Below, piece by piece: positions 21,584 to 64,000 of a stretch of DNA of 64,000 nucleotides. The DNA comes from Boletus sp. NGJ (taxonomy: Eukaryota; Basidiomycota; Agaricomycetes; Boletales; Boletaceae): assembly GCA_019096195.1 (NCBI GenBank), contig JAGTXK010000119.1:62001-126000 (forward strand), in the 5' to 3' direction. The notes beneath the pieces were generated by a model. The model was not told the DNA's origin, ran no database searches, and worked only from the letters and a program-made list of their open reading frames with translations. Both the position numbers and the translations under genes were made by a program. Numbering within the stretch: position 1 is the first letter of the stretch; each line of letters starts with the position of its first letter.

Positions 21584-21646
21584 AAATTTCACCGAACACG
21601 AAAAAACAACGACTCGCCTGGAATTCGAGTCTTAAAGAGGGGGTAG

Positions 21647-28003: not shown

Positions 28004-28014
28004 CTACCCCCTCT

Positions 28015-32840: not shown

Positions 32841-33177
32841 ATACTTGTTTACAGGTTTAAGAAGTGAGGTTGGGCGAAGATAAGAGCAAAAGTGAGCGAT
32901 GCGATATAGGGCGAATGTGGAGGAGGGGCGGAGCGGTCTAACTTTGTCGGGATTTCTTTGATAAACTTTCCTTTTCCTAGGTCAGTCTTCTTTCAGTGCC
33001 TTACTACCTGGTATCTTACAACCAAGTTCTGGGGCACCTACGCCTTCATAGGAGTCGAAGTAGAGGTCATTAAAAATGGTGGGCAACGGTGGTAGGGGGA
33101 CCGGAGTATAACTACTTTACTACTAGCAGGTGTGCACAGAGATAAGTCGATATAAAATCTCCTATCACACTGCATGA

Positions 33178-33800: not shown

Positions 33801-33837
33801 TTACCCCCTGTTACATGCAAAGTACCACTGAGCAACT

Positions 33838-39860: not shown

Positions 39861-39925
39861 GGCGAGCAATGGTGGGTGGAGGACTATAACGAGCGATAGC
39901 CTCAGGGTAGAGAATTTACACCTTT

Positions 39926-40797: not shown

Positions 40798-41273
40798 TGT
40801 TATGAACCTTTTGGCACAAACCACAAGGCTCGAACTATTTGCAGGTTACACGAATCCTGGCTCAACAGATGAGGTGGGGAGTCTTAGTCCATACTGTTCC
40901 CAACCCTATGATGACCAGAGTGGCCAAAGCTAATGAGTTGTTGGAGGAAAAATACAAGTGGATTAGACTGGGGATTCCAGTTGTCAAAGTACTACCTTAT
41001 ATATGTACAGGAATGATGCATGGACCAAGCAGTGTGTGATGAATTACTAAGTATAGTAAGATGAAGATTAAAGGGCTGTGTGAGAAGAGCAGAAATTAAA
41101 GAGTTGTGGATCACATGAGGTGTGACGTCATTTGACATTATAGGTTCTAGACCTATCATGTGATATGTTCCCATGGTCACGTGCACAGTCACATGACTTA
41201 TGAAGAAAAGAGTTGAAGAAAATGAAAAGTAAATGTTTGTGTGAAAAGTTTGAAAATTTCATATATTATAACA
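40798..41273 (-). repeat. 5' LTR of B (right end)
   Basis: 476 bp. The outer end TATAACA is followed by the target duplication GAGAG (41274-41278). The inner end adjoins the conserved primer-side sequence (CTTGGATTAGACT on minus). Confidence 0.92.
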
Positions 41274-42411: not shown

Positions 42412-43295
42412 TGTTATGGACAATGAAGGGGGTGCACCTTTTTCCCTTCCTTTCATACTCCCTCCATTCCCAGTCATTGATGACTTGTGGGGAGACCTCT
42501 TGTTTGACTCCTCAGAGACAATATGGGGAAGCTTCCTTATGGGAGAACACCTAACTCTCAGAACTTCCCTTGACAACACTGCATTCTAGAGCGGTGAACA
42601 GCCATCTATGAGATCTCAAATCTCTCCAATGGCTATTCTCTCCATTCTGTGTCTCCTTTATTTCCTGTTTCACTCTTACCTATGCTTCATATCAGACTCT
42701 GCCTCCTCAGCTATGCTCTCTTGTACATAGCTTGTAGTCTATCACTCCCAGCCTCATTCCCGATTCAGTTCTCCTTCCTACTTATGGTAACTCCACTTAT
42801 GCCTGCTCTAAAGGGGTAAGCCCTATATATAGCTAGTCGATCCCCCTGTATCTCCCAACCTTGATCTACACCACATCCCATGTAATCTACCCAACTCCAG
42901 GTTCCACATTATTTCAGACGTCAGTGCCACTCTGGAAGTACAGTAATAACACTAGTGCTTGTGATACTCCTAGTATTCACATCGCACTTGTGCAGTATCC
43001 TCACTACCCCCTCGCGTGCTTAACCAGTGGCAACACCAATGCAGAACAGGTTCTGCACTGCAGAGTATTAGCCTGCAAACAATAGGACTATACCACTATC
43101 ATCAAAGCCCAAGACTCTGCCATTGGTTGTAGAGAGACTCCAAACTCAGGGGAGACTCTATGTAAAGCTAGTTGTCAGTCCCTATACCTAGGGAACTCGG
43201 GCCTAGGGAGCCATTTGCTCAAGTCCAGCTAGTTCAGTAATCAGCTAGGAGATCAATTACTTGGGAACATGGCACCAAGTTACAAGGTCATAACA
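42412..43295 (+). repeat. 5' LTR of G
   Basis: 884 bp, TGTTATGG to GTCATAACA. GTCCC (42407-42411), just outside, is the likely target site in the LTR of E. TATATATAGCTAG near 42820 is a TATA-like motif. Matches the solo LTR at 11411-12313. Confidence 0.82.
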
Positions 43296-46200
43296 AAAGA
43301 TCAAGGTTATAAATTGTTGTGACTATCTAGTCCAACACTCCCATCTATTCAGAAATAGAACTGCCTATCAGAGAATAGGCTCTCGCTCTACACACTGTGC
43401 AGAATCAACCTCTTCTAGCTCTTATAGAGGTAGGACCAAGAAGAAGAAGCCACATCAACACAGGCTTCCACTCCTACCTCTGAAACATCTTCGGCAAGAA
43501 GGATCCCGGGGTTATCTTCCCACTACAACAACCCTTCTTCCCATGCATTTCCAGATCCACCCAGACAACCAGATTTTCCAGGTGGTCTCTGCTCTCAAAC
43601 CATGACCCCATTGGCAGATCCTATTCCACTGCCTGCATTCCAACCGGTTCCCATCAGAGTAGATTCCCCAGATCCATTCGACTTCAATTGAAGTGGATGA
43701 TCTAGTCCAGATCCCAACCTCCCAGGAAATCCCTGACCAGACAAAGGCTCAGATAACAAAGACATGGTTGAAATTAAAGCTGTGCTGCCAAAGGAGTTCA
43801 CTGGCGAGACCAACGATGCCAAGAGATGGCTCATGGCAATGGAAGGATACTTTCATCTTGGAGGCCCAGACAAATTCTCAGAGGAAGCCAAAAGGCTCAT
43901 CCTGCTGAACAGAATGTCCAAGGGAAGAGGAAAAGCATTTGCAGAAGCCTGGCTAACCAGGCTACTCAACGACACTGTGCCGGATGCAGACAAATCCTAC
44001 CTTGAAATAAAGAAAGCCTTCACCCTCACCTTCACCCCCCACAACACTAGCAACCTAGCCATGGCAGAATTTGGATCCCTTCAACAAGACAAAAGGAATC
44101 CAAAGGGATTTGACAAGTTCGTCTCCTAATTCTTCCTACTAGTGGTCTGCTCCAAATTACAAGAGTTCCACTCCATCTTGGAATTCTTCCTCAGAGGGAT
44201 CGACCAAAACATCACCAGGCAGCTAGTCAACAGCAAAACCTTCCAAAAAGCCAAGAAAATGGAAGAAGTTTACGAAGTGGCTGCAAATATTCATGGGGCA
44301 TGGCAACAGATTGAAGAGATACAGAAAGGACCCTTTGCATCCTGAGGAAGAGGAGGAAGAGGAAACCACCATGATTTTAATGCCATGGACATGGACTGAA
44401 TCACCCTATCTCCAATTGAATATGCCAAATGAATCAGGGAGCAGAGATGCTTTATCTGCAATAACATTGGGTGCAGTACCAGAAACCATCCAGGGTACAA
44501 ACCAAGGAGAAGAGAGGGAGATAGGAAACCTCAAGAAATGCACACCCAAGTCATCACTATCAGAGAAACACCACAGGATCCCCTCGACAAATATCTGGCA
44601 GACATCTCCAAGAGGAATGGACAAGACAAAGTTCTCAGGATGCTCAAAACAGCCTTTGACATGGAGCTTGATGAGCAAGGCCTCGCTCTGAAACGAGCAG
44701 AGGAAGATGCCACAATGGAATGGGAAGAGAACATCAATACTCTTGCCCTTGAACCCACTATGCAAACTTCCACCATTACTCCTGCTAAAGCATCTTTTTA
44801 GATGGAGGAGGAGAACCAACATCACCCTCCTTCTATATGATTGCCCCTATATTTATATCTGGATTAAGAAGTAATTCTATTCACATTCCTCTTTCAATCT
44901 GGAAACAGGATGGCAAAATCGTTGGAACAAATGCTTTAATTGATAGTAGAGCAACCAGATGTTTTATCTCTCAACAAGAAGTTGAGAAGATGAGATTACC
45001 CATATGGAAGCTGGACACCCCAGTCCAAGCTTGGAACATTGATGGAACACAAAACCAATTGGATACTATCAAAGAGAAGACCAACATTGTGTTAGATTAT
45101 GGAGGAATACAAGAATGGCAGGCTCTCTATGTCCTCAACTGTGGCAAAGACGAAGTCATCCTAGGACTTCCATGGCTCAGGGTGGTGAACTCTGAAATCA
45201 ACTGGACAGAAGGACGGGTAACCATAGTACTGTCTTCCTATCAATGGACCCAAGGAAATCCACTGGAAACCCTGGAACAATAATATCTACTACAATATCT
45301 GCAACATGGTGAAGAGGAGTATGTGCAGGACAGACTCTACAAAACCTTCAGTCATTGCATGCCCCTACAATGGGCCAATTTCTTCAATGTGCACAGGCAT
45401 GTACCAGAGTTTGTTATCAAAAGAACAACTCTATCTACCAAGATCGCCCAACAAGCACCAAGGGCAAAAACCATATTACCAGATGCATTCAAGAAATATG
45501 AAGATGTCTTTATGGAAAAGACAATCACCAAATTACCCCCCTCCTGATCATACAATCATGCAATCGAGTTAAAGGATTCGTTTCTTCCAAAACGAGCAAA
45601 AGCATATCCTTTAAACCTGCTGGAACAACAGGCATACAAGGAATTCATCAACAAACATATCAAAACTGGGAAGATATCCCCATCAAAATCCCCCCAAGCT
45701 GCCCCCTTCTTCTTCATACAGAAGAAAGATGGAAAACTCTGCCCCTGTCAAGACTATTGATATCTTAACAGTCATATGATCAAAAATGTATATCCTCTTC
45801 CCTTAATTTCTGATCTACTGGATAAATTAAGGGGCTCATTGATCTTTACCAAGTTTGATGTACGATGGGGCTACAACAACATATTGATCAAACCTGAAGA
45901 TCAATGGAAGGCGGCTTTCCTCACTCCATTCAGGCTCTTCGAACCAAATGTGATGTTCTTTGGAATGTGCAATTTCCCAGCAATGTTCCAAGCTTTTATG
46001 GACAATCTCTTCAGAGATTACATTGCTGAGGGATGGTTGGTAATTTACATGGATGATCTGTTAATACACTCTTCAGATCAAGCAACCCACAACGAAAGGA
46101 CACAAAAGTTCTTAGAACACTTCTGGCAGCATGAAATGTACTTCAAACTGGAGAAGTGTACTTTCTCGGCCAAAGAGATTGAGTATCTTGGAATGATTGT

Positions 46201-47885
46201 AGGGAAGGATGATGTCCAAATGGACCCAGTCAAACTCAACGCAATCAAGCAATGGACCCCCCAGTGAATGTAAAGGATGTCCAATCCTTCATTAGGTTCT
46301 ACAACTTCTACAGGAAATTCATCCCCTCCTTCTCCAACATCGCTTGTCTGTTGTTAAATCTTACAAAACAGAAGACACCATGGTCATGGGGAGAATCTCA
46401 AGAGAAGTTGTTCAGAACCCTCCAATCAGCATTCACAAGGAAACCTGTTCTTGCCTTCCCCAATACATCCAACCCTTCACCCTTATGACTGATGCCTCTC
46501 TCACTGCATCAGGAGTGATACTCATGCAGATCAACAACAATGGAGACATGCAACCTTGTAGTTGTCTCTCCCAGACTTTGTCTTCTGCAGAGAGAAACTA
46601 TGATATATCTGACAGGGAACTTTTGGCTGTCATATGAGGTCTAAAAAAATGGCAGCAATACCTCCTTGGATCACCCCACCCTGTGACAGTGCTAACCAAT
46701 CACAAAAATCTCACCTTTTTCAAAGAACCCTGACAGTTATCCCGATGACAAGCATGGTGGCTTCTGTTCCTACAAGACTACGACATGGTCTACCACACCT
46801 TTCCAGGAACCAAAATGGCCCCTGCTAATGCCCTATCTTATCGAGACAAAGTTGATACTTCCAAGGATAATGAAGACATCCAACTTCTTCCATCTGATGC
46901 CTTTGATCATCAAGTCCAAATGATCAACCTGGCATTAGCTGAGAAAATTAAGGGATCCTCCTCATTCAACCCCTTAATTCTCTCTGCCCTGGAACAAATG
47001 GAGAAAGATGAACCCCTCTTTGGAAGATCAAACATGGAAGACTGGACCTTTGACAATGGCAACTTATACTTCAAGAATCGAATGTATATCCCAGAACCAG
47101 CCCAACAGGAACTGGTATCCTCCATCCATTCCTCCTTTGAAGGAGGACATGGAGGACACCTTTGAATCACCACCTTCCTGACCAAAGATTACTAGTGGCC
47201 CAGACTCACTACATTTGTCCAAGAATATGTTGCCAGCTGTGCTGTTTGTCAAAACCGACTACCCCACTAGCCTTTGAAGGATGCCACCCATTCCAAAATC
47301 TTTCTATGGACCTCATCACCAACCTTCCCCCGGTGAACGGATTTGATTCAGTCATGGTTGTGGTCAACCATGACCTTAGTAAGGGGGTAATTCTTGCCCC
47401 TTGCACAAAAACAGTGGATGCTGCAGGCATAGCCCACCTGTTTTTCAAAATGTATTTAAACGATATGGATTATATGACAAAATTGTATCTAATTGAGGAC
47501 CTCAATTCGCATCCACCTTCGCAAGGGAATTTGGAAGACTACTGAATTATGACATTGCCCTCTCAACAGCTTACCACCTGCAGACTAATGGAGAAACTGA
47601 ACAATACAACCAAGAACTGGAAACCTACCTATGGATCTTCTGTGACAGCCAACCCCAGAAATGGCTGGAACTCCTTCCTTTCATAGAGTTTACTCACAAC
47701 TCTACCAAATACTCTGTAACAGGAAGATCTCCGTTCTCCTTGATCCTCAGATATGAACCCAGATCATATCCCCCCTTAGGAAAAACCTTCCTCCCAGCCT
47801 TGGAACAACACTTCTCTGGATTAGAAGATGCCCCACATAATGCAGTCACCTTTTCCCATACTACACAACAAGCCTGCTTGCAAAA
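42412..47885 (+). mobile_element. G: Ty3/gypsy element, 5' LTR to integrase, cut by the satellite-bearing unit
   Basis: 5' LTR 42412-43295, leader to about 43700, gag from about 43764 (EFTGETNDAKRWLMAMEGYF), protease near 44940, reverse transcriptase about 45560-46100 ([10 protein letters not shown] near 46045), RNase H near 46480, integrase about 47080-47600. The sequence stops resembling pol near 47885, before any chromodomain, and a different GC-rich sequence begins. No 3' LTR lies in the window. Old, with many breaks. Confidence 0.85.
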
Positions 47886-48059
47886 GGCCTGATTGGTATG
47901 GATGGCCCCGGCACAGGCCCAAGGTGTGGGGGGACATGAGACATGGGCAGGCCCGAGGGCATGAGTATTAGTAGATTACGGGAGGGCCTGCCAATACATA
48001 ATCAAGGAAAGCTCGATAAATAAGAAGGGGCCTAAGGGGGGGGGGGGTTGTATGACCTA
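47886..48059. other. Junction sequence, possible left terminus of the KDZ unit
   Basis: Homology to pol of G ends here and GC-rich sequence containing GGCCCGAGGGC-type motifs starts, with an 11-G run near 48040. If the unit to the right is a transposon, its left end lies within this stretch; I cannot fix it to the base. Confidence 0.4.
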
Positions 48060-49270
48060 GCCCGAATATCATCTTTCGGGCCCAAGCATGCTCTCCATAA
48101 TCGAGCCTGAAGAATGCCTGCAGGCCTGAGTTGTGAATAAAATACCAAGCACGTGGAATCCGAGCAGGCCTGAACGGTGTGAGGGGGGAAACCTCATTGC
48201 TAATGGACAGGCCTGAGCAGGGTGAGGGGGAGATACCTCAATGTATACGGACAAGCCTGGGCAGGGTGAGTGATGCAATCATCAGTGCATTCTGGATAGG
48301 CCTGAAATGGGCGGGTTTGCGTATGTTGACGTATTCAGGAGGGCCCAAGGTGGTCTGAGGGGGAACATACCTTGATGCATTCGGACAAGCCTGGGCAGGG
48401 TGACTGATGGACTCATTGACATATTCGAGCAGGCCCAAGAGGGGCAGGTGGATGAGCCTCGATGCATTTGGATGGGCCTGGAGTGACAGGGGGGAACTCA
48501 CCTGGATGCATTCGGACGGGCCTGGGATGCTCGGGGGAATGCACGTCGATGAATTCGGATGAGCCTGGGCAGGGTGGCTGACTGGACTCATCAACATATT
48601 CGAGCAGGCCCGAGGAGGGTAGGGGGGCAGGCCTTGATGTATTCGAACGGGCCTGGAGTGGTGGGGGGAGCTCACCTCGATGCATTCGGACGGGCCTGGA
48701 GTGGCAGGGGGGAACTCAACTCAATGATGCATTCAGACAGGCCTGGGATGCTCAGGGGAACACATCTCAATGCATTCAGACACGCCTTGTCAGGGTGACT
48801 GATGGACTCATCAACATATTCGAGCAGGCCCGAGAGGGGCAGGTAGAGATGACAGACCTCGATGTATTCGGATTTGCAAGCAGGCTTGTCGTGTAGTAGG
48901 GGAAAGGGTGACTGCATTATGTGGAGTGACAGGAGGGGAATGCACCTCAATGCATTTGAACCTGCATGGGGTGATGGACGGACTCGTCGACATGTTTGAG
49001 CAGGCCTGAGGGGGGAAGGGGGAAAATGCTTCGATTTATTCAGACAGCCTGGGGGTGGTCTGGGGGAACTCACCTCGATGCATTCGGACTAACCTGGGCA
49101 AGGTGAGTAATGCGCCCGTAGATCTATTCAAGCAGGCCCGAGGTAGGTAGGGGTGGATACACTGAGATGTATTTGGAAGGCCCTGAGGTGATCAGGGGGA
49201 ACGCACCTTAATGCATTCAGACAAGCCTGGGATGCTCGTATTTGGACAGGCCTGAGGTGGATAGGAGAGA
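48060..49270 (+). repeat. GC-rich minisatellite array
   Basis: Imperfect tandem repeats built from units like GATGCATTCGGACGGGCCTGG, each followed by a G-rich stretch (AGGGTGA or GGGGGGAACTCACCTC). A longer order is visible: GACTCAT..ACATATTCGAGCAGGCCC recurs near 48410, 48585 and 48805. No coding potential is credible; the long minus-strand frames are repeats of Ser/Pro/His. The last 58 bases of the window are an inverted match to this array. Confidence 0.85.
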
Positions 49271-49518
49271 AATAAATTCAGACTGGTAATGCACACACCC
49301 ACCAATGTGGATGGGTTGCAGGGTAAGGGGAACCGAGGCTTGTAGGGGGAGGAGAACCAAGCTGGGATATTGCTCCCTTCCAATCACACCCATTTATTCT
49401 CAAATCCACTTGCCTGCATAGTATCCTGGCAAAAATGCTGCCCTTCTAACCATATTATATACATTGCAAATTCCCCAGCTGCCAGAATTTTGAAACATCA
49501 CCCTCGGAAATAGCCAAG
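49271..49518. other. Spacer between minisatellite and TET/JBP gene
   Basis: No gene is seen. Likely holds the promoter of the plus-strand gene that follows, but I cannot point to an element. Confidence 0.4.
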
Positions 49519-50873
49519 TTGGTATATATTGCGCATTTCTCCCCAATAAGTCCATCCCTTCCATATGCATCTCAAATCACCCATCTACAAACCATGCATC
49601 ATTTACATATTCTGAGCAAATGGGCAATGTTCTATACAAACACTTTGACAGCCTACATAGTGGCTAGATTCAAGGCATCATTGCAGTCTGGCATGCAGAT
49701 CACCCTCCCACACCTAACCATTCCCCTTGAGACTATTTGTGAGGCAGATCAGATGATAAGAATTATGGTCACTGCCTACCAGAACCAAGGCATGAATTCC
49801 CCCTTGGGTGACGAGACTGTGAAGCTCATTCTCTCTCAGTGATCATAGGGGATATTGACAATATTCAGTTTGGTGAGTGAATGAAAAGAGGGGGCTGTTC
49901 AAAGAGTCAGGACAGGAATGAACTCAAACTAACTATTGGCCTTGATGGCCAACAGTATGAGCAACTCATAGAACCCTCGATAATCACCGATCAATCCAGA
50001 TATATCCTGCTATGGTATCTGCCAGGAGCTTTAAGTCAGCCGAACCAGATAGGTTCGTTACATATTAAGCATGAGTCATTACCAATCAATCATAAAGTTA
50101 TATATTTGGGATCACCTGCACCTTCTTACCGGTCCTCTCTCCCAAAGTGTGTCTGGGAAGCCACAGCAAGCTTGGCGAATCTCGCCCGAATACTTCCAAT
50201 CTGAGGCAGACATTTGAGAGTCGATTAACCTCTCCCCTGCTTCATTCCAACAAGGCCAAAGTGTAAGTTAAGTCAGATATGGTGACCTTCTTCATTCATC
50301 CTGCTTGGCATTTAGAGTGACCCAGGTGGACCCAAAGTCTCGGCCCGCTTGAAGGGTGCCTAGGATGGTAATGGAGATAGGGAATGGGTTCAGGCCATGC
50401 AAGAACATGCAGCCCTTCTTGCTGCCACCCTTGCTATAATGCATCCCAACATGTACTCAACTAGACAGGAGGCCATGTTTCAGCTCGGCAATTGGGCCAC
50501 TGAACAGGAAGATCTGGATTTCAAAGATGTCTTTGAATCATGGGCATCCATATATAACGTGGTGTCTATCATGGCTAACCACATGAGCCCTCTCCACACT
50601 GACATTAACAGTCGGCCTCAGTGGCTGGATCTGCTTGTCACGGTCGGCAACTATGCTGAACTTGATTTCATCATTCCAACCATCAAACGATGACTCTGGT
50701 ATCCCCCAGGAACCATCCTTGGTCTTTCTGGACAGATGTTGGAGCATGATGTTGGTCCAGCGGACAGTGATCGGGGAGTTCTGGCATTCTACATGCGAGA
50801 CAATGTCCATGAATACTTCAGCATTCCCCATTGCAACTATGTGGAGTATAGTATATGGAGCAGACAGTCATAG
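49519..50873 (+). pseudogene. TET/JBP-family 2-oxoglutarate/Fe(II) dioxygenase, decayed copy
   Basis: The family oxidises 5-methylcytosine or thymine in DNA. The N-terminal part (49519-50204) has WAMFYTNTLTAYIVARFKA and ILLWYLPGALSQPNQ, which I recognise from fungal TET/JBP proteins. A 53-nt phase-0 GT-AG intron lies at 50263-50315 and joins SPASFQQGQS to SDPGGPKVSARLKGA. The catalytic core reads from 50397: the iron HxD is His 50595-50597 with Asp 50601-50603 (SPLHTDINSRPQW), the distal His is 50745-50747 (LSGQMLEHDV), and the Arg-containing end is DRGVLAFYMRDNVHEY. All metal ligands are kept. Two in-frame stops interrupt it: a TAG after RLKGA, and a TGA at 50691-50693 just before LWYPPGT, where an Arg CGA would fit the family. 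The region 49842-49881 also does not read through. The start at 49519 is uncertain. It is the neighbour of a KDZ transposase, a pairing known in basidiomycetes. Confidence 0.85.
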
Positions 50874-50967
50874 ATTACAAAGAAATGGACTAGATTATAT
50901 AGGAGGATGTAGCAAGGCTAAATCACCTATGTGCGTGATGCAATTTGTGGAGCCGCCCCATGTCAAT

Positions 50968-51677
50968 TCATGACTCTACCAGAGTTGCCTTGGTCTTCTT
51001 AAGCTCAGCCATATTCTGCTCCAGCTCAGCCAGAATTCCTGCCTCTATCTTCTGCAATTGGGCGTTATGAGCCCTATCTATTGGAGATTCATTCTCAGGC
51101 CAAATACCCTGGTGAAATATAAGCTGGCAACAATGATGGCCTAAAAGCCTGAAAATACATACTCCGAAAAAGTCATCAGCCTTCATGAGTGCATCCACTC
51201 TCTCACCTCATCCATCAAGTAATAGCTCGGCATGTTGCCCACCCACCATGGTTCTTTGAATCTGAACATTGGCCCATCAATGGCAGGCTGCCAGTTAGGC
51301 AAAAGCTCCATGGTTCTCCTCAGGCCATCAAATCCAGCCGGATTGCAAGCCAAGATACTGGCTTGCAGGGCCTCTGGTGACATTCCTACTTTAATGAAGC
51401 TGGAGCATGCCGGGGTTAGGGGGGGGACTGTTTGCTGAGGTGCATATGCCATGAGAAAGAAACCAAATGTTTGCTAGAATTTGATATGGTTAGGAAGTTA
51501 TTGTCCAAAGTAATTTAGTGGGCATACCGATTCCACCTGCAGGTTATCATACCAAGTTGCTAGCCATTCATCAATGGGAACTTGAGTGAGATGGGTGATG
51601 GTGACTTCAATCCTGCACTTGTAATACCAAAGAATAAGGTGGAAATTGGATGTGGACATGTTTTCAATTGTCTCCAT
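50968..51677 (-). pseudogene. Unrecognised gene between TET/JBP and KDZ, C-terminal coiled coil
   Basis: The ATG at 51677 (METIENMSTS) begins exon 1. A 54-nt GT-AG intron at 51527-51474 (phase 0) joins YDNLQVES to QTFGFFLMAYAPQQ. The middle is rich in Pro/Trp (MELLPNWQPAIDGPMFRFKE). Near 51190 the frame changes to ADDFFGVCIFRLLGHHCCQL, which ends in a heptad-like tail (KIEAGILAELEQNMAELKK) and stops at 50968. The change could be a second intron or a frameshift; I cannot decide, so I call it a possible pseudogene. It is tail-to-tail with TET/JBP (about 95 bases between stops) and downstream of KDZ on the same strand, so it may be cargo of the same unit. No family assigned. Confidence 0.55.
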
Positions 51678-51829
51678 GATGGGATGAGGGGAAGGTTCAA
51701 TCAAACATTCTATTTGGAAGCTTGACTTTATATATGGTATGGGAGCTGAAGTTTGGAAACTCCCAGTGTCAAAGACAATGGGCAGCTAATCATTGCAATC
51801 AGACAATGGGACTACTGTCAATATCCCCC

Positions 51830-54800
51830 ACCCATTCTAATTCTCGGCAACCTTCCCACTCCACTTGGCACTGGTCCCACAGCTGAGCATACATCAATTG
51901 TTGCTGGGCTGCATGGCATGCCTGGCCTCAGAGACCCTTCTGCAAACTATCAGTGAATCGCTGTGCCCATTTGGAGGATTTATGGTTGAAGAAATTGACA
52001 GTCCATTCAAACTCGGTCTTCAACAGTTCATTCTCCTCTTTCCAGCGATCCATTGTTGCTTTGGCATGTAATCAATATACTTGGTAAACTGGTGGAACCA
52101 TTAGCAGGACACCTAATACTGAGTCAGATGAAATCATATTACATTTGGACATCCAATCATTCATCTCTGTGTCCCCAGGTACATCCATTGACCAGAACCA
52201 GGCCATCCCAGTGGTTTGATGGTTTCTGGCATTCAGCATGGCGACCACAGTGCTAACCTTCAGATCCTCATCCTTCAGAGGCTGATACCAAGCCATCATC
52301 TCCTCATCAGCTAAAAGATGCATCATTGCAGCTCGGCATTGGTGATATATGGCAGCATGTCGGCTGACAACTGAATCCACAGCATTCACTCTCCCCCATG
52401 CCTGGGTGTTTCTTGCATGGCTGGATGCATGCCAAACATTGGTGTGAAACAACACTGCTTTGTCTGCCAAAGCCAGCCGAACTTCATGCAAGGCATCATT
52501 TGCTTGCCCAGCTCAGAGCATCAGCTCCTGTTTGACCAAATGCTGAGCATCCAGAGCATTGCATTTATCAATGCCCAAATTTGATGACAAGGGTAGCCTG
52601 ATTTCATAGGGTTGTTTGCTTCCAAGGGTGTGGTCCATGCCTTCATCAATTAAATCTGCTTTGGTCTCTGAAATATCCAATATGAATTCTTCAGCATTTT
52701 CTGCAGCAAGAAATGCTGAAGCTTCGGCCAAAAAGCCCACAATTTGGGTTGAAAGCCGATTGGTGTGGCATGCAAGAGCCAGCTGTTGTAACTCAGTCCC
52801 TCTTAAACCCAGCCATTTGATATCTCGTTTGAGTGATATTTGAGCCTCCTTGATTTTTAAACCCCTAGACAGCCATGTTGCTGCTCCATGGAGCATATCA
52901 GTCTTCTGAAATGCACTTTCCAGTATTTCTAGCTCAACGGCACACACTATTGGTGCTGTCATCAGATTAGTGACATTTGACAACTCCAACCCTGGTCAAC
53001 TTACCTTTCTTCAATTGAACCTCAAATATATCCATTTCAGAAGGATCATTCCAACGTGTCTGCATGGCTGTCTCCTCCTGCTTTAGCCATTTCTGTTGTT
53101 GTAGTTCGGGCACAGTTGCATCAAGATCATGGAATGCATTGTAAGTTGCTGCTGAGGAGGTCCAAGTAACCTTAAGCTTCCATGCCAGACTTCTACCTGT
53201 CATGAGTGAGTTTAGCTAACATCCTCCAGCAGTACAAGCTGGAAAACATGTACTCATTCGGATCATCTTGACAAAATTAGAATCATTCATCTGGAAGTCA
53301 AGAAGCTCTTGCCAATATGGAGATGACATTCCCTGAGTTGACCCAGAAACTATGTTCAAATTTGACCATAATGTCTTGATTATCTCTCCATTGATCCATC
53401 CAGCTCCATAAATGAATAGAGGAGCATACTGAGCGAAGCATGATGCCTGGTGTCTGTGCATGTGCCAGATTCCGATCCCAGGTATGATCTCCAGATCTGT
53501 AGAGAGTTGAAGAAACTTGTTGTTTTTAATCTGAGCCTAGAACTTTTTCATGTAGGAGCAGTTAATGTCATAGAAACATATAACCCTCTCAATATGGTCC
53601 ATGTTGTGTGTTAGGACATTAATGAGTGAATAGTCCATATTCACCTGCCTGTGCAGATGTGAGAAATGGGAGATATGAGTCACCATATTAGATACCTCTC
53701 TCCCTTTTGAAAATCCACTACTGAATGTGGAACAAAGCAACCGTGGCGAGCACAAGCTGAACCACCAATCCTGGTGGCCTCCAATTTACCACAGCTCGCA
53801 TTTGCTTGATTAACAGCTTGGTGGTTGTTACAACTAGACCTCTGGACTTATTAGTCAGAAATGGGCAGCATGCTATCGTGGTACATGACTAATACCTCCA
53901 GGGGGTGGTTTGTGACCTTAAGATATACTCGGTAATCTGGTCGAGTTACCATATAACCGAGACCGTCCATGAGCCAGGTCTGGTCAGCCGGGCACTTCTC
54001 CTGCATATGTTCGGCCTTGAAGTTTCCATCCATGACCAATGTTCAGGTATACTTCTGACTGTCCACTCATGGGTTGGATTGGAAATAACTTGAAACATAA
54101 ACCACTCACTTGGTCAGCTCATCTGAAGACGCATGCACGTTGATGCCAGGTTGCAGGCAGGTGGGGCAAAACAGAGCCAACTTGCCATATTTTGGAGCCT
54201 GAGAAGCATGGCCAAACCTATTCCACTTGAGCAGCTTAAGAACTCTCCACTGACAGGCTACCTGAAGTAACTCTCGGTAATGATTCTTGAATGCCATGAA
54301 TATGAGAATAAATGGGTTCATGAAACATACCGGCACAATATGAGGGAAAACATTCAAGGTGATCCTTTGGAGCTTGCTGTAATAATTCATTCCCGAAGTT
54401 CTGCATTCTAGATTATCCCAGATGAAATCGTTCAACACAGAAAACATAAAAGTGGTTTTCGGCATTTGCAGGGTCACTGGAAAAAGCCTGCACCATAGCA
54501 GCTGGAGATAATCCGGCTCCGAACCAGAACATGCGCAGTAGTTAACAGTGATAAAATGAATGCTGGTGACATCAACGATAGTAAGATAATCTGAACCAGT
54601 TGGTGGATGAAGGTAAGGAGGAATATCATCTTGATCAACATCCTCCCAAGTGTCATCATCCATGGGCACTGGACCTCTGGGAATATTCTGGTTTGCACAA
54701 CCATCCAATAGGCAATGGTCTCCTTCATGGCCGAGATCAAGTTCAAGCCTGGTCTGATTTCACATCGGTCAACCTTTATGCAGGAGCTTACATTTAGACA

Positions 54801-55444
54801 TGCAATGGGCTCACCAACATCAGAGCGGAATGCTCAAAGAATCCTCCAGTCCACTGCTCAATTCCATAAAATGGATGTCTTTGATGCTGATCCTGACAGC
54901 ACTGAGTGCAAAACAAAGGGTGACTGAAACAGTCCAAACACCAATAAATACCATCCCTATGACACACACTGCATTCTCGGGGCTGTGAGGGGGCTTTCAT
55001 ATCTAGGAGTGTTTGCAGAAATTCATCCTTATGAGCTACTCATTCATGGAGAGAATCATTGGATGGCTAGATGATTGTATGAGTGAGGGCATTGAATGCA
55101 GATAAAGATCTGCACATTTTTGTGGGGTAGTCTGATTGGCTGTATTACTTCGAATTGCACTTCTCTGTCATCCTGCCTTTATCAAAATCATCAGAATGAT
55201 GTAAGTGCAGAAATGCCAAAGTACCAACATACATATCACTCTGAAATGTAAACTAAGAGCCTGGAGGACCAGGCTTGCTGGGAGTGGATTGGGCTGATTG
55301 TGCTGAAGTAGTTCGCCCTGAGTTCTGGCCAGAATTCACTTTGACAAATGCCATCTTTGGACCCCTTGTAGTGTTCTTCATTACCCATGCAGCATGAGTC
55401 ACTCTGCCTGGGTTAATCTTTCTCTCGTAGGGGTTCTTTGGCAT
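51830..55444 (-). pseudogene. KDZ-superfamily transposase with CxC2 cysteine cluster, decayed
   Basis: This is the transposase of Kyakuja-Dileera-Zisupton DNA transposons. N-terminal start MPKNPYERKINP at 55444. CxC2 cluster at about 54950-54800: CSVCHRDGIYWCLDC, CTQCCQDQHQRHPFYGI. Then YLTIVDVTSIHFITVNYCAC and CQWRVLKLLKWNRFGH to about 54106. An intron probably follows (donor near 54107, acceptor near 54060), then the RNase H-fold core: VMDGNFKAEHM (first Asp) with LMDGLGYMV, VNMDYSLINVLTHNMDHI and CFYDINCSY, then GIWHMHRHQASCFAQYAP and GEIIKTLWSNLNIVSGSTQG. The C-terminal helical part includes ANDALHEVRLALADK, MAWFWSMDVPGD and EFEWTVNFFNHKSSKW. At least one in-frame TAG (in NE-stop-VAHKDEF, just upstream of the cluster) and frame changes, e.g. 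near 52.5 kb, show it is dead. Length fits the family's ~1000 residues. Confidence 0.9.
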
Positions 55445-55912
55445 TCTTGGGACAGATGAAGCTAGGTACTGTAACTACAAATACACACATAACAAGAACG
55501 ACTCACATTTTCATACAGTACAAGAGCCAAATTGATCACTTCCTCATCACCCATAACCCATAGCATATTTCAGAATTTCAGACAAGTCACTTCGGTTAGC
55601 TTGTCACATCTGGACTTGTTGGAACTTCTGCCTGAGACAATAGACATTGGATGACTGATGAGGCTATCAATAATTGAGTTCCTATTGGATACTTCCTTTG
55701 TTCTGCAATCTCACCTAGTATGTACCTGTCATATGCCCTGTAATGAGGGGGCTAATTGGCAAACACCTCACCTCGGCTGCTTGGTGCCTGGCAGAGATGG
55801 AAGAGACAGGACAACATAGACAACAGGCAATATTGGGATACTGATTGGGCAATGAGAGTCTAACCTGGTAATACAGCAGTCCACACTGAAACCTCTGCCC
55901 TTAGCCTCTGTA
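55445..55912. promoter_or_regulatory. Divergent intergenic region between KDZ and the plus-strand gene
   Basis: About 470 bases separate the two divergent starts (55444 minus, 55913 plus). It should carry both promoters if they are genes of one unit. I see no motif I would defend. Confidence 0.35.
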
Positions 55913-57737
55913 ATGTCCGACTTGGAGGATTATGCTGCCCAAATATCAAGCAACCATATATCAATATATCAATCATCTGAGGATGATAGAGAGGACAGTC
56001 TGGTAGAGCCAGGGCCAGATGTTGCCAAGAATGAGGCAGGGCCATCCTGAACACAAGAAATAGAAGAGGAGATCGTAGTGCAAGAGGAACATACTGGAAT
56101 TTCCAACCATGTGCTACAACTACTGAAAGATCGATGGCCATCCTGGAAGGCTGCCAAAGGAAATAAAAGAAAGATGATCTGGCGAGCCCTTTTGACTGAT
56201 GTCCACCAGCTAAGAGAGAACTGGTGCATGGACAGTGCAGAATGGGACTGACATCTGCAGGTGCATATCATTACTGGCAACCTCTATGATTTACACTGAA
56301 CATGACTTAGATATATCTGAATTGGATGCATAAACATAATCAACCAGCAAAGAAAAAGAGTGGCTTCTCCATTGGTAGGCTCTGGACAGCTCGGTCCATC
56401 ATTTGGGAGCTTCAAAAAGATGAAATCAAAAAGGCCATAGAGGCATGCTTCGGAGCATGATCATGTTCTGCTTGAATGTTTCATCATTATCAAAAGGTAC
56501 TAGCCAAAGTAATCAAAGGCCTATTCCCTGGAGAAATGCAGCAGGCCAAGCTTACTGCCAAGGTATGGAACCAGTGAGGCGCCTCTAATAATGCCAAGGC
56601 AAGGTGAGTGTTTGAGCGGGAACATTTCAATTGAGACTAATGGTTGCCAATTTGGTGGTTTAGATTTGTGACCAAGGGAGCAGCATTTGCAATGAAGCAG
56701 TTCTCTGAAGAAATATGGAGGAGAGGGGGAATTTGGATGGTAATATTGACTGGTTTCAAGGGTGAAAATGGAGAGCTATTCTCAAGCTGGTGTGTGAACG
56801 TCAATTGTTCAGAGTGCCCTTGGGGTCTAATTCCAAATAGCTTCGACTGTAATGCAGAGATTGACAATGACCCAGATTTCAACAGATTCCATTCCGTCCA
56901 AGGTGAATGGGATCGGTATCTCAGCCGATGTTTTGAACAAGCTGGGGATGAAGCCAAAGGGGAGGAGGAGGGTGAAAATGGGACTGGGGGTGCAGGACCG
57001 AAGCTGATAAAGAGGAAGCAGAAATGCAGTGATGAGCTGGTGAAAATGATTACTGCATCGAACAGTGCCATCTGGATCCCTAAGCTAACTGGCCGAATGC
57101 AATCCAATTTGCAAGCCATGGTTCACGGATTTCTTACTGCCCATTACCATATGTGATCATCACATCAGGCAGCCTTACTCTTGACTCTGCTGGCAGATTT
57201 AACAAGCAAAATGCCTAAGGTTTCAGCACCCTTCAAAAAATTAGCAAAATTCCAGGACTTCCTATTCTTGGGTGAGCATCTTCCTGAGGGTTTTATCTTC
57301 TCTGATGACCCAAGCCATTTGAAAACAAGTGAGGCCCAAGAGTTTCTCAAGTTCATTCAGTCACAATGGAAGGACAAGCCTGATAACATATTCACATTTC
57401 AGTATTGGCTTGAGGCTAAGGACAAGCTGCAGGACCTGGTAGATACCTCAGAGATGGAGGTGGAGGTGAGCCAACCCCAACCGAAATCTCGGTCAAAAGG
57501 GGCGAGTCGCAGCAGACCTAGTCAACCTGACCATTGAGAATCAGCTGACTCTGACTCTGACAGCTCCGAATCTGCAGGCACTAAATAAGAAGGAGCTGCT
57601 GCAGCAATGAACAAAGGAAAAGGCAGGGAGGTGGCTAGTTCAAGCCTGATATCTTGGTCAGAAAGTGACAAAGATGTTGGACACACAGCACCGAAGGCCA
57701 CTGTATTCAAAGTTGGACCACCCAGGCATGATAAGTA

Positions 57738-59347
57738 CAGTGGCTCAAAAAACTGTTCGCATGTTTGGTCATTTTTCACTAAACACATTATTCCCCAATA
57801 ACTCCTAACCCTTATCCTAACATATAGGTGTATGAAATGAAGCACTGACCCTTGGCTTTCTATCCATCAAGGTTGTAAGACATATGAATAAGAATGGATG
57901 AACTGGCAGCCATTTCAAAACAATGACTCATTTGGACAGTTTTTTGACTCTAAATTTATCTAGATATCTAGTACTTGCTATGAGCTCCTTTGGCCTTGAT
58001 AACTGCTTCAATCCTTCTAGGCATACTTTCTATCCATTTCTGACACTGTTCCTCATCAATCTTTCCCCACTGCTCCACTACTCTTTCCCACAATTAATGA
58101 ATACCTGTAGGAGCATTTTCATAATCTGAGAGGCATATCTTGAGGTGATTCCAAGTATGTTCAATGGGATTAAGGTCTGGAGATTGTGCAGGCCAGTCCA
58201 GAAGCTTGATTCCTTGCTCTTCAAACCATCTTTGGGCTCTTTTGGAGGTATGCTTGGGATCATTATCTTGTTGAAAGATAATGTCATCTTCTGGAATTCC
58301 AGATTCCTCCGTGCTTTGCAGCAACCCCTGCTCCAATATGGCCACATACTGTTCAGCATTCATTCTCCCCTCTACCTCACTCAAAATCCCCACTCCATTC
58401 CACCCTATGCAGCCCCATACCATCAGTGAACCTCCTCCAAACTTGACTGTGCCTTGGATCTCTCTAGCAATTAGCCCCTCTCCTTTCTTTTTCCACACAT
58501 ACTCTTGCCCATCTGACCCAATCCTATTTATCTTGGTCTCATCTGATTATATAACTCTCTTCCAGTCCTTCACAGTCCAATGCTGATACTTGAGAGCAAA
58601 GGCTAATCTTCTTTTCTTGTGACCACTAGAAAGCAGTGGCTTTTTCTTCTTTACCACAGCCTTTAAGGAGGCTTCCTTGAGAGTATTTCTAACAGTCTGA
58701 GGACAGACAGGGGTATCAATAATGGTATTGATGTATTGGGCAGCATGAACAGCATTCCTGGCCTTGCCAGTAATAATTTGCTGGACAATAGCTCTTTTGT
58801 TGGTAGAGGTAAGCTTGGAAGGACAGCCACCAAGAAGCCTAGTCTTCTCTGGCTGGAGTTCCTGAAGCACTTGGCATACTGTAGACTTCCCTAGGCCAGT
58901 TTGGGCAGAGATTTTCCTAGAGGAAAGCCCATGAGAGGAGAGAGAGATGATATTGTTTTTTTGAGAGATGGAAATGGATTTCATGGTGATGGTGGGAAAA
59001 TAAACATGGAATGATGGGGTTTATATATGTTGTCTGACATTCAGTTACATAATGGTGACATAATAGAAGCCCTACCAAATGTATGTAATCATATTACAGC
59101 ATGCTAGGGTCCAATATATGTAATCAAAACTTAGAGTCAAAAAACTGTCTGAATGAGTCATTGTTTTGAAATGGCTGCCAGTTCATCAATTCTTATTCAT
59201 ATGTCTTACAAGCCTTAATGGATAGAAAGCCAAGGGTCAGTGCTTTATTTCATACACCTATATGTTAGGGTAAGGGTTAGGGGTTATTGGGGAATAACAC
59301 ATTTAGTGAAAAATGACCAAACATGCGGACAGTTTTTTGAGCCACTG
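57738..59347 (-). mobile_element. Tc1/mariner DNA transposon, copy 2 (1610 bp, complete ends)
   Basis: Starts CAGTGGCTCAAAAAAC at 57738 and ends with its inverse at 59347; TA at 57736-57737 and 59348-59349. Terminal 15 bases are identical to copy 1, with the rest of the TIR diverged, so these are sister families. Long TIRs again carry an inverted inner copy of the terminal motif (57929-57950 and 59134-59155). The subterminal parts contain CCTAACCCTTATCCTAA, similar to telomere repeats. It is the last insertion visible in the unit at 47.9-64 kb. Confidence 0.94.
57968..58984 (-). pseudogene. Tc1-family DD34E transposase, copy 2, two in-frame stops
   Basis: 339 codons from ATG 58984 (MKSISISQKN) to TAG 57968-57970, full length for the family. 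Helix-turn-helix regions LSSRKISAQTGLGKSTVCQV and VCPQTVRNTLKEASLKAVVK; catalytic region SDETKINRIGSDGQEYVWKK, then [14 protein letters not shown], then [16 protein letters not shown]. The frame is single throughout except for a TAA just before SDETK (where the paralogue has Trp) and a TAA before LWERVVEQW. It is thus close to intact and younger-looking than copy 1. Binds the inverted repeats and excises at TA in related elements. Confidence 0.93.
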
Positions 59348-60298
59348 TATCCTTCGCCTGATGAGGTAGCAAGCCTTTTATCTGATTCCATGCAGTCAAA
59401 CAAACTCTCCCGACCTCTCCAAAAAGGGTTATTCCAGACAGCCAAGCAGGCTGACCATGCACACTTCCACCAATGAAGATCAGACTACCCAGAAATGGTG
59501 CGTAACACACTCCCCACCCATGAGACTTTTGTGATGGTCTTTGCAGTGATCAGCAAAGCTGAGAGTGGGGCTGGCTGCCGAGCATAAGAAGGATGGTTTG
59601 GGAAATACCCAAAGGGCCTCTGTTGCAAATACAGGGCGAATGAATAGAATTGCTGTGCAGACTCAAGGCCATTCAAACAATACTGAACCTATGGTGGGTA
59701 GAGAGGGTTGGGTTGATGAGCTGCCAGTTATTCCAACCAAACCTGGTCAGAAATGCCCCCGAAGAGACCTGCACCTATTAATGAGGAAGGTAGAGTTTGG
59801 CTGGTAATGGCAAGGCATTACAAAGTCTGATGTTCCCTCTTTAGCAGCTAGCCAATCCCAAAAGAAATTGAAGTCAGCATTGAAGGCCCCTCAATCAGTG
59901 ACCGAGAGTGGCATTAAGTCTTTTCCGAGATGTCAAACTGGGAAATCAGTCTTACCACCTTGGAATGACTTCAGCCGCAAGGGCAAGTTTTCAACTTCAC
60001 ATATTCTGGCCATCATTTTTTGATGGGGAAATGCACCAGATACTCTGACTCCACAGCATTCTGGGAGGCCACGCAAAGCTCCACTGCCACCAGATGCTGA
60101 TGCATCTACATTTTTACATCCCCCCTGAAACAAACGCAAAGTGTGATTGGATAAGATTCAGTCATATAAGACATGGTCATATCTTACTTATGCTTTTCTT
60201 ACAATGCCCTTATGTGTAACCTTTTGACATGACAATGCAATGCAGAGTTTTGAACTGATAGCTAAATACAAAGTACATAAGTATGGAAAGTGTCCACC

Positions 60299-62130
60299 CT
60301 ACTCAATGTCCTCCATGGGTGCAGCGCCCTCACCCCTTTCGGCATCCTTGGTCATGGAAGTTGGCTCCAATGCTGAGGTTGGAGCAGTCAGGTCCGGCAA
60401 AGCCGGCATTGGCAGGGACAACGCCGAGCTCATGTTTGGGGCCGTGATTGGATCAGTGAGGGGAAAGAGCAGAGGGGGACACCAATGGGTTGCATCCAGG
60501 AAAGGGTTGGGCAGGCCCCAATTCAATGTTGCTGGGGCATTGGCCTCAACCTGAGGATTTCTGCTTGACTGGGGGAGAAACAAGGTGGCGGGGTTAGAGT
60601 CAGCGAGTTTGATTGAGGGTGGTTTGGGGGTATCGGCATCTTTGGAACTGTCGATGGCCCAGTGTTCGGTTGTCTTGAGTGAGGTAAGACCTTGGTCAAA
60701 CAGGAAGGTCATTTGAGATGGTCCAACCCAAATATTCTCTCCAAAGTCCACATGTGTTTTCTGAACAATGCTGTCCAAAACACAACCAAAGCTCAGCAGG
60801 CCATCCTTGACAGCAGCCAACCTCTCCTCCACCCATGCATTCCTCATGCAAAGCTCTCTGTAGGCCCTCAACAGGGTGTCATAGTCCCAAGGTAACTCAG
60901 AGGATTCAACCATCTTGCTGCTTGATGCGCTCTTGTTTGCCCTAGGCAAAACAACCCCGTCAAATGCTGGAAACTCACATGTCAATGGCGATGTTCAAGT
61001 TCAGCTCTGTTACGACTTACTTGTTGTTTGCTTGAAACCCCCTGCCTTTTCAGAGCTGAGTTGGCATGCCTTCTTTCTAGGGGGGCCAATCTTGACCTCA
61101 CTTCAGGGCTCACTCTGGGAGGTTCCAGCACTTTGTACAGCCGAGTAATTTGGATGGCTGGAAGTGGCAGAGAAGGCAGGGTGGTAGCGGGAAGCATTAC
61201 CTGAGGGCGAGACTTGGAATGGGCTGGTTGACTTTAAGTGACATCTTCCCTCGGCTGAGCCTGTGTCATATCAGGTGGACCTGGTTGTGGACCTTTGGTG
61301 GATGGGGCTCGAGGCAGTAGAGACTCCAAATGCAGGCATTTCTTTAGCAATGAGCACCTCACCTTACACCTGTGGCATTCGGTGCAGGTGTACCCATCAC
61401 CAGGCCTGCAGATTTCCCCCATCGTTGGCAATGGTCATAGCTTTCTCCCGATGGCACATCCTGTGAGGACTCTTGAGTTTGAGCAGGCATCCTGTCCAGC
61501 CTTGGGCTTGATGACTGCAGCAACGAGTGAGTCCGGGTCCTTTGAGGCTGGAACACTTCTGGATGACAAAGAGATCATCCTTGTGGTGCACCATTGTCTT
61601 CCTCCTGATCAACCTCCTGAGCCTTACCTTTGCCCTTATTGACTCTTTGATCATCCTGAAATTCTTTCATGTTGGGCATTTCTGGAGTGGCCTCCTCAAC
61701 TGGACTAGAAGCAACTGCCTTTAAGGTAGGAGGTCGTGAACCAGAGCCACTTGGGTCCTGGTCTGGGGAATTGACCGCCCTATCAATTTGGAGCCAGAGG
61801 TGGTCTGGTCAGCTGCTGATGTCATGGGTGAGTATGGCATTTCAGTCGGGCCATTGATCATTTTGATAATTGGCTAGTTGTATGTCCAAGGCGATGGAAA
61901 GGAGGAGGATTGCATCTGCATGTCCTGTGACAGACCAAATCGTTTCCTACAAAGTGAACATTCATTGTTATCTAGTAGAGCTTATAAATACTTACCAAAG
62001 CTACCTTGATCTCATCAATGGCCTTGTGCCATGCCTTGGTCTGAGCTGTGATATCAGGCATTTGCTAAAGAACCTTCACAGCAAGGATGTCAGCGATGTC
62101 TGCATTTGCTGCATTGACAATACATTGCAT
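60299..62130 (-). pseudogene. Cysteine-cluster protein gene of unknown function, decayed
   Basis: The start region at about 62130 (MSSSMQCIVNAANADIADIL, then ITAQTKAWHKAIDEI) is followed by a GTAAGT donor near 61993 and an acceptor near 61947. Next comes a Ser/Pro-rich stretch (PSGSGSRPPTLKAVASSPVE). A cysteine motif lies near 61380 (CTECHRCKVRCSLLKKC), like half of a fungal Zn2Cys6 cluster. After more frame changes, 60985-60299 reads cleanly: LPWDYDTLLRAYRELCMRNAWVEERL (helical), then a Pro-rich tail ending GAAPMEDIE. The pattern of helix, basic Cys cluster and acidic end recalls mushroom proteins with a DNA-binding-like cluster and the antisense coding region of E. Frame changes around 61.4-61.0 kb suggest decay, though some are surely introns. 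No function assigned. Confidence 0.5.
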
Positions 62131-62520
62131 GCTGGAGCTCATTGCTGTGGTAGCTGATGTGTTGAATGCAGAAAGAGAAGGAGAAAAGAGTGTGGTTTGG
62201 GACAGATTTGCAAGCAACACTTATATTGGCATATGCCAAGCATTTGCACTCCGATGGCATTGTTTGGCTATTCCACACTTGGCTGAGTCAGCTAGCCCCA
62301 AGTCAGACACCCAAACCTAACATCGTTGATTTACCCCATATCCATCTCATTTTACTGCAATTGCGACATGCAAAAACAAGTTTGATTTACCCTTCCTGGT
62401 ATGTCCTACTAATATTCTGGCCGACGATGCTGAGCAGTTTCGTTATTACAGTTGACAAAAGCTCGGTGGCAAACAGTTCACAGTCATTACACTCCATGCT
62501 AGCATGCAAATCCACAATAG

Positions 62521-63354
62521 ATGATATCGGTGAGTCGTCTGTTTGACTCTGGAAAAGTCCTTGATATACCATCCTCAGACATGGTCGATGTGTCATTGGC
62601 AAGAGGTGCTGCAATCCAGCATTCAGCACCATTTTCCTTGGGTGGTTGCATTCCCTTAGCCCACAACCAAAACCCCGCCATTCAGATTCCTTCACCCCCA
62701 CGATTTGTCCCCATGATTGGCAAACACATTGGTAAGATATCATCGCCCTCACCTTTCATCCCCATCATTGCCACTCCTGTGGGTCAGATACTGTTGCCCC
62801 CACCATTCGAGCCCATGACTGCCAAACACGCCAGTGGCATTCACGAGTCATTCCAGAGAATACAGATCCCAACCCTCCCACCATTGTCTTTAAAAACCGA
62901 GATACTCCAGCCACAGATAAGGATTCCAATGCCACCTCCATTTTAGCCCAGCTCATCGCAGCATCATATGAATGCTTCGACTGATCTCACTGTCACTTGC
63001 ATCCCAACACCACCACCATTTCCTTCAAAGAAACGCCCTTGCTCTAACAGCATTTGCATTCAAACATCACCCCCATTTGCTCATATGAAAACTGATGTGC
63101 CCTCTCAAGTTGCCACTCTGGCAGCATTGCCAAAGCCGAAGAAGCTCAAACAGGCTCCAAGGTATCTGTCCCCTGGTGCCAAGCAGCCTGCCGAGGTTCG
63201 ATGCTGCCAAAGATTGGTACGAGACCTACTGGGCCGTAAAGTGAGACAGGAGAGACAAGTAGCAATCGAGCGAATGATCCAAGGTCAGGGTGGGTGGAAT
63301 ATTCATTTTGGGTGGTTAAGTCGCATGCTAAAACACGTGTTTAGAGGCTTCTAG
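62521..63354 (+). pseudogene. Proline-rich repeat protein, unrecognised
   Basis: The frame from 62521 contains about seven degenerate repeats of the type I-x-I/S-P-x-P-P-x-F-x-P-M: IQIPSPPRFVPM, ISSPSPFIPI, ILLPPPFEPM, IQIPTLPPL, IRIPMPPPF, IPTPPPF, then QTSPPFAHM. A TAG near 62944 interrupts the frame once. After the repeats comes a basic region (KPKKLKQAPRYLSPGAK, VRDLLGRKVRQERQVAIERM) to the stop at 63354. The frame stays open on both sides of the stop, which favours a real, recently broken gene. An intron around the stop is possible. The start is uncertain. No family recognised. Confidence 0.45.
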
Positions 63355-63942
63355 AAATGGTGCCGAACATAATTGGCTTATTAGAGATGGGGTCAATGTC
63401 GTGGGCATTCCAGATTTTGGTATGTTAGCTTAGTCCCGGGATCACACATTCGGTAATACAGTATTTCAAATAGTGTTTGCCAATGCTGCAATGCTCAATG
63501 GGATGTTGGAATGCTACACCCAAGTTTCCCACAGACCAATCAAACATCCTCTCGCTAGCATGGCCATGGAGATGGCAGTGGATTCATTCACTCGGGCTTC
63601 AAAGTAAAAGGTGGAATTATTGAAAACCCAGCTAAGGCTTTTGGAGATGCTAGAGTACGTACAAGAGCAATGTGTGTGGGCTAGTGCCATATATACTGGG
63701 ATGGCAAACTGTCAGAAAGCATCAAAGGCTTGGGGTGGAATCCTGGCCCTGTTGAGTTCTAGAAATAAAAGATGAGTAGAGCTCAGTGTTGCCATGCCTA
63801 ATTGAGAAACAAGGTTGCCAGTAAATTGTCATGCATATATCTTGTTGGCTAAATTCTGGCTGGTTATATTGGGGGATACATCACTTACCCTGCATAGTTA
63901 GCTATGAACACCCTGATGTCCACCTTGTCCACAATGCTTGAG
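63355..63942 (+). other. Possible further coding sequence, not resolved
   Basis: One plus frame at about 63440-63770 reads MLECYTQVSHRPIKHPLASM and LLKTQLRLLEMLEYVQEQC (helical) with two stops. It may be a following exon of the proline-rich gene or decayed cargo. Nothing recognised after 63780. Confidence 0.3.
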
Positions 63943-64000
63943 CCTGTCTGAATGCATTGGGGTGAGTTCACTCCCGTTACTCCAGGCCCATTCAAATACA
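63943..64000 (-). repeat. Inverted copy of the 48.1-49.3 kb minisatellite, runs off the window
   Basis: The reverse complement of these bases reads TGTATTTGAATGGGCCTGGAG, then a G-rich spacer with GAACTCACC, then AATGCATTCAGACAGGC. This matches array units near 48638-48700 (TGTATTCGAACGGGCCTGGAG, GAGCTCACC, GATGCATTCGGACGGGCC) with mainly C-to-T and G-to-A differences. Only one unit is visible. Confidence 0.7.

Follow-up and report, generated by a model that had tools for sequence, protein, structure and literature searches.

Does the pairing of a KDZ transposase gene with a TET/JBP dioxygenase gene, set between oppositely oriented copies of the same repeat, mark a single mobile element, and where would such an element end? 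The question is raised by the right-hand part of a stretch of 64,000 nucleotides from Boletus sp. NGJ (contig JAGTXK010000119.1, positions 62,001 to 126,000; here called the window). The gene content of this repeat-rich stretch points in itself to a basidiomycete, probably an Agaricomycete. An original prediction, made from the letters alone, had proposed a giant KDZ transposon with DNA-modification cargo, bracketed by inverted minisatellite arrays. Our analysis confirms what it had observed in part, and supports its interpretation in part. We consider it likely that a decayed, large, TET-carrying KDZ cut-and-paste transposon, probably of the Kyakuja type, occupies the DNA from 47.885 kb to some point past 64 kb, inserted in a Ty3/gypsy element, here called G. 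At least 16.1 kb of this unit is visible, of which 1.6 kb is a Tc1/mariner element (14.5 kb without it). The presence of a KDZ transposon with a TET/JBP gene is well supported by the gene content and by precedent; its proposed ends require a closer look.

The putative left end is a forward, GC-rich tandem array (47885-49278, + strand), on which a weight matrix, the density of GGCCY cores and Tandem Repeats Finder (TRF) agree, as had been predicted. The matrix was trained on the repeat itself and scores whole units only. Scanned across the window, it finds 24 array units of about 44 bp each, from 48015 to about 49278, with scores of 20-44 and start-to-start spacings of 40-47 bp in 20 of 23 cases. 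The majority consensus of the unit is GATGTATTCGGACAGGCCTGAGGTGGGTGGGGGGAGAAACCCTC, and the units are more degenerate toward the outer edge of the array, where + strand GGCCY cores reach outward to 47886, at the junction with G. The array holds 25 of the 95 GGCCY cores in the window (18 per kb vs 1.1 per kb elsewhere), all ten exact matches to CAGGCCYRAG (13 of 29 if up to one mismatch is allowed) and six of the eight CAGGCCTG palindromes. TRF reports overlapping arrays here, with periods of 43, 44 and 174 bp. At the main CpG column of the unit 23 of the 24 units read CG (11), TG (7) or CA (5), therefore the divergence between units partly looks like CpG loss. Inward, the array adjoins the TET/JBP dioxygenase gene and the KDZ transposase gene with its CxC2 cysteine cluster.

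Outside the array the only weight-matrix sites that score 9 or more are at 3890 (15.2), at 46426 (9.7) and at the right edge of the window (15.0). By eye there is no array at 3890, and a self-blastn of the window gives no array match there. As a folded structure the array yielded nothing (z = -0.98). Its pattern had no matches among viral contigs and two among bacterial and archaeal genomes, which is about the level of chance (roughly 2 expected, by our own estimate).

The same repeat is present at both edges of the unit, in opposite orientation. The fragment at the right edge (63942-64000, - strand) consists of about 1.35 units, cut by the end of the window, and 48 of its 59 positions are identical to the reverse complement of 48463-48521. 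By comparison, the best of 200 dinucleotide shuffles reached 32 and a same-strand control 28. On the + strand, the ten best ungapped placements of the fragment (31-48 of 59) are all within the array; elsewhere the highest value is 30 of 59 on this strand, and 29 on the other strand with the fragment itself excluded. A 22-letter probe from the fragment, allowed up to three mismatches, finds six sites where none is expected, namely itself and five sites in the array, on the opposite strand. The original prediction had described this feature, at 63.94 kb, as the same repeat inverted. The repeat stands up well against the shuffles; with 59 nt in view, the array at this edge is a putative one.

At the left edge, the history of the insertion can be followed in some detail. 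Element G (43294-47884, + strand; 5' end provisional) has matches to protease and reverse transcriptase and a weak one to gag, and it is truncated in pol, which agrees with the earlier claim that the unit interrupts it there. Aligned with a related gypsy element in the window, G matches best up to 47874 (46.9% identity, E=5.7e-35); a second, weaker alignment in a different frame runs to 47905. The relative's same frame remains open to 34997, about 160 codons past the cut in G. The last open reading frame (ORF) of G has no Pfam match of its own; because the integrase zinc-binding domain of the relative begins in the preceding ORF, the cut in G would lie in the integrase, after the position of that domain. 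The array meets G directly at about 47885, as expected of an insertion, and a CA is present at 47881 by the left junction, which is a weak sign of a CA..TG terminus. The last 52 bp of G before the junction (47833-47884, + strand), which place the left edge of the unit at about 47881-47886, have an inverted copy inside the array (48873-48924, - strand) that is identical at 49 of 52 positions and stops at the exact junction base. This looks like the patching of a break in the array at a time when array and G were already joined, and resembles templated repair.

The genes between the two repeats give the unit its identity. The KDZ transposase gene (51800-55039, - strand; gene ends provisional) was modelled by hand with 7 exons and six GT..AG introns, whose boundaries were picked by reference to known fungal KDZ proteins. 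The resulting reading has 973 amino acids and five in-frame stops (four TGA and one TAG), which were replaced by X in the domain searches, as was the stop in the TET reading. The KDZ domain is complete in the spliced reading (residues 294-517; PF18758, E=6.5e-42, profile positions 2-217 of 217), and so the predicted KDZ transposase has been found, together with a CxC2 domain (residues 126-209; PF18803, E=7.9e-20). Single exons without read-through gave 6.1e-22 for CxC2 and 8.1e-14 for KDZ, with two weaker KDZ pieces (0.00025 and 0.026). A separate coiled-coil gene had also been predicted between KDZ and TET. Its existence is doubtful: in our KDZ model, splicing joins the ORFs at 52072-52995 in frame to the transposase, and they are probably its C-terminal half and not a gene of their own. 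They seem to correspond to the same half of fungal KDZ proteins. The pattern of the KDZ core exon had 8 pattern matches among viral contigs, none of which was confirmed.

The predicted TET/JBP gene was recovered by matches to both Pfam Tet_JBP and the CcTET structure. Its dioxygenase domain (50364-50870, + strand) has an HTD motif, and its frame is interrupted by a TGA at 50691-50693. On its own, the first exon reaches E=1.8e-6 against Tet_JBP, which is under the Pfam cut-off; read through the TGA as X, the domain matches with E=1.1e-9, which is over it, and aligns with CcTET over 141 query positions (E=2.3e-14). The TGA, which lies inside the domain, aligns with an Arg of CcTET. A possible N-terminal coding part lies at 49881-50201 (+ strand), without a Pfam or PDB match; it presumably belongs to the TET gene, and the gene model is provisional. 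Downstream of the iron-binding HxD, Ser and Asp occupy the positions of Gly331 and Asp337 in CcTET. Judged by these residues the domain fits the AG type, as Gly or Ser and Asp after HxD are features of the AG-type TET carried by Kyakuja (PMC12730594). The TET exon pattern had one pattern match among viral contigs, which was not confirmed.

The association between TET and KDZ genes was reportedly first described by Iyer et al. in 2014, as cited in Kojima 2025. The precedent invoked by the original prediction, TET/JBP genes with KDZ transposases in basidiomycetes, is found in the TET+ Kyakuja elements with an AG-type TET, which occur in five Agaricomycotina orders (Kojima 2025, PMC12730594). Like these elements, our locus combines a KDZ transposase with a TET/JBP gene, and it shares the HxD motif and the downstream Ser and Asp, at CcTET positions Gly331 and Asp337 respectively. 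We favour the Kyakuja type because the pairing of the two genes, their setting and the AG-type residues agree with the account in that paper, which also gives Kyakuja a 7-bp target duplication and CA..TG termini. The same source corrects the earlier statement that KDZ elements have terminal inverted repeats (TIRs). This is not general, as two Laccaria families, Kyakuja-1_LB and Kyakuja-2_LB, are stated there to have none. In contrast to them, the genes here are flanked by inverted 44-bp repeats, as putative ends, and the copy looks dead.

Other known systems share single features with this locus. The Cryptococcus elements KDZ1, KDZ2 and KDZ3 also have a KDZ transposase with a cysteine-cluster domain; however, they are described as about 9-11 kb long, with TIRs of 139-241 bp and CxC1 (PMC12810828), whereas here we find CxC2, at least 16.1 kb and apparent array ends. 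CcTET of Coprinopsis cinerea (PDB 7vpn, 8jkk) belongs to the same dioxygenase family, and is a characterised enzyme, whereas the TET gene here has a stop codon in its domain. A likeness of another kind is offered by Galileo and Foldback. To our knowledge neither of these carries a TET. They are DNA transposons with long, internally repetitive inverted ends, and belong to the P-element superfamily in Drosophila (PMC3573991). The plant VANDAL elements combine an anti-silencing function with motif-bearing tandem repeats in non-coding DNA, and there the tandem motif arrays can be targets of the transposon's own anti-silencing protein, VANC (PMC5735166). A corresponding link may exist at our locus, although VANC is described as a DNA-binding anti-silencing protein and not a dioxygenase, and its motifs lie in introns and upstream, not in inverted ends. 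No paper on KDZ elements with subterminal or tandem-repeat ends appeared among the matches listed, judged mostly from the listings, and the main text of PMC12730594 uses neither 'subterminal' nor 'minisatellite'. Inverted 44-bp arrays at the ends of a TET+ KDZ transposon are possibly new.

As now read, this KDZ-TET copy looks dead, with five stops in KDZ, one stop in the TET domain and an approximately fourfold depletion of CpG, and it should make neither full protein. It had been suggested that the enzyme could oxidise 5-methylcytosine at the element's own silenced copies, which fails for this copy on account of the stop codon in the TET domain. The CpG observed/expected ratio is 0.26 in the unit without Tc1 (TpG 1.44, CpA 1.43), and ranges from 0.21 to 0.31 in the four segments that were measured at 49.45-63.94 kb, with Tc1 set apart. 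Elsewhere the ratio is 0.48 in the array, 0.19 in G, 0.04 in Tc1 (3 CpGs only) and 1.23 in a young long terminal repeat (LTR) element at 16.5-22.1 kb. Comparing this last element with a relative at 27.5-33.2 kb reveals CpG transitions at 28% (n=737), vs 9.6-14.9% in other C contexts, and no CpG excess in the reverse comparison (6.5% of 308). Methyl-CpG deamination would be expected to leave such a pattern. A small pair of LTRs points the same way, with 25% at only 12 CpG sites vs 0-5% elsewhere; nothing could be learned from the Tc1 repeat arms, which have 2 CpG sites, or from the young LTRs, which are 99.4% identical and show no change at CpG. CpG hypermutation of this kind has been reported in Tricholoma matsutake, in conflict with an earlier claim of its absence from Agaricomycotina (PMC6980582), and CpG signatures in basidiomycetes have been linked to a Masc2-type methyltransferase (PMC4352252).

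Two further uses of these data were rejected. The CpG level cannot serve as a clock, as the Tc1 element is nested in the KDZ element, hence younger there, and has the lower ratio. Nor does the type of stop prove CpG decay: five of the six stops are TGA, but TGA accounts for 56.5% of the stop triplets in the region, and on its own the count is not significant. The higher CpG ratio of the array (0.48 vs 0.26 in the body) might reflect protection by TET, but could equally depend on the age and homogenisation of the array.

Across the window as a whole, CpG observed/expected forms a mosaic. In 2-kb windows over 1-14000, 16000-22000 and 28000-40000 the ratio jumps from one stretch to the next, from 0.01-0.10 to 1.05-1.34 and 0.60-0.90. 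The mosaic seems to track the identity of the elements and only partly their age, with the nested Tc1 below what its position suggests. The young Ty3/gypsy LTR element spans 15707-22131, with LTRs that are 99% identical, undepleted CpG, matches to protease, reverse transcriptase and integrase and a weak match to gag. Its relative at 27526-33184 lies in the opposite orientation, is 82% identical and is partly CpG-depleted.

How an intact element of this kind might operate can be sketched as follows. The CxC2-KDZ transposase of a working relative would recognise CAGGCC-type sites that recur in subterminal arrays, which have a period of 44 bp, or about four helical turns, and are inverted at the two ends. 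The transposase would then pair the ends and move the whole unit, and the TET enzyme would oxidise 5-methylcytosine, relieving silencing. The copy at hand would later have received a Tc1/mariner insertion, and have lost CpG by a process like the deamination of methylated cytosine. In this sketch we infer that the element ends in the arrays and that its transposase binds there, that all DNA between them forms, and moved as, one unit and that TET acts in the role given above. TET as a means of transposon escape from methylation silencing was already proposed in PMC12730594, where the function is described as being without experimental validation, and where a non-specific action is speculated for Agaricomycotina.

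A bolder version would have the arrays act as a platform for self-recognition, with CpG-bearing sites at which methylation blocks the transposase, and to which the element's own KDZ and TET proteins direct demethylation. This is suggested by analogy, and we regard it as quite unlikely. If true, it would be a fungal, enzymatic counterpart of the plant VANDAL/VANC system, and the ends of the element would themselves specify the targeting. Provided that the array ends are real, TET+ KDZ transposons would have a defined, testable site where transposase binding and 5-methylcytosine oxidation could meet, and it could be asked there whether fungal transposons turn TET on themselves. That a TET-carrying element has ended in CpG loss anyway bears on how well such an escape works.

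The extent of the element is where other explanations have to be weighed. The transposon may be smaller, running from about 49.3 or 49.9 to 57 kb, with the arrays and the right-hand genes being other, neighbouring repeats. Its size would then be near that of Cryptococcus KDZ1-3, about 9-11 kb (PMC12810828), the region is indeed a pile of nested elements, and the scanned right-hand ORFs have no family link to KDZ. We nevertheless think a smaller element unlikely, as the only two good matches to the repeat in the window bracket the KDZ-TET genes in inverted orientation, and CpG depletion is alike across the four segments out to 63.94 kb, though the ratio of G comes close. The repeat could also be a host minisatellite or satellite, with an independent patch at 63.94 kb and the KDZ-TET genes merely nearby. 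Here the 64 kb of repeat-rich DNA argue to the contrary, in that no other patch is found in them (the two outside sites score 15.2 and 9.7, compared with 20-44 for the units), and so does the direct, insertion-like joining of the array to G. Tandem arrays can disperse, however, the second patch is cut by the right end of the window, and the piece of G within the array is evidence of local breakage and patching of array DNA. On balance, a host satellite seems to us very unlikely.

The large, array-ended Kyakuja-type transposon that we prefer has difficulties of its own. The inverted orientation of the repeats fits the paired subterminal ends that had been predicted, but the right repeat is visible for 59 nt only, and by the whole-unit weight matrix it scores 15.0, compared with 15.2 at the chance-like site at 3890. 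A right junction, a target duplication and a second copy were not seen in the window, which ends at 64000. Rearrangement at the left end is evident from the inverted 52 bp of G, and the left junction is maybe not the original end of the transposon. Long inverted arrays also sit uneasily with the lack of TIRs stated for Laccaria Kyakuja (PMC12730594), although arrays that lie inside the tips need not be TIRs. The lineage, among Kyakuja, Zisupton and Dileera, is a provisional assignment made from the genes and the TET residues. Some of the five KDZ stops may fall in unmodelled introns, given that the boundaries were chosen by hand.

The remainder of the unit contains several ORFs without a Pfam match. 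Two ORFs of 171 and 126 amino acids lie at 56641-57537 (+ strand), with no assigned function. At 60302-61808 (- strand) ORFs in several frames include a cysteine cluster, CTECHRCKVRC, and acidic and proline-rich stretches. At 62521-63772 (+ strand) there are proline-rich ORFs, with an in-frame stop at 62944-62946, as well as probable C-terminal pieces. The scanned ORFs at 55.9-57.5 kb and 14 at 59.5-63.8 kb gave no real Pfam match (best E=0.18). A second cysteine-cluster ORF is found among the repeats of the window, at 41198-41533 (- strand), where Zn_clus reaches 20.1 bits against a cut-off of 21.

The Tc1/mariner element at 57738-59347 (- strand), which goes unnamed in the earlier account of the unit, is a later insertion and not part of the KDZ element. 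It matches DDE_3 and HTH_Tnp_Tc3_2, has inverted repeats of about 222 bp that are 93.7% identical, and has a TA at either end, as a target duplication. Another member of this family lies at 6777-8388; the two share 72% identity across about 1.1 kb, and both sit in stretches nearly without CpG. Finally, a tandem repeat of 39-41 bp (GTAGGGTCAAGGGTTCGACGACAGA...) occurs at 33289-33409 (3.1 copies) and at 40038-40118 (2.0 copies), in two similar flanks of a gypsy-like element.

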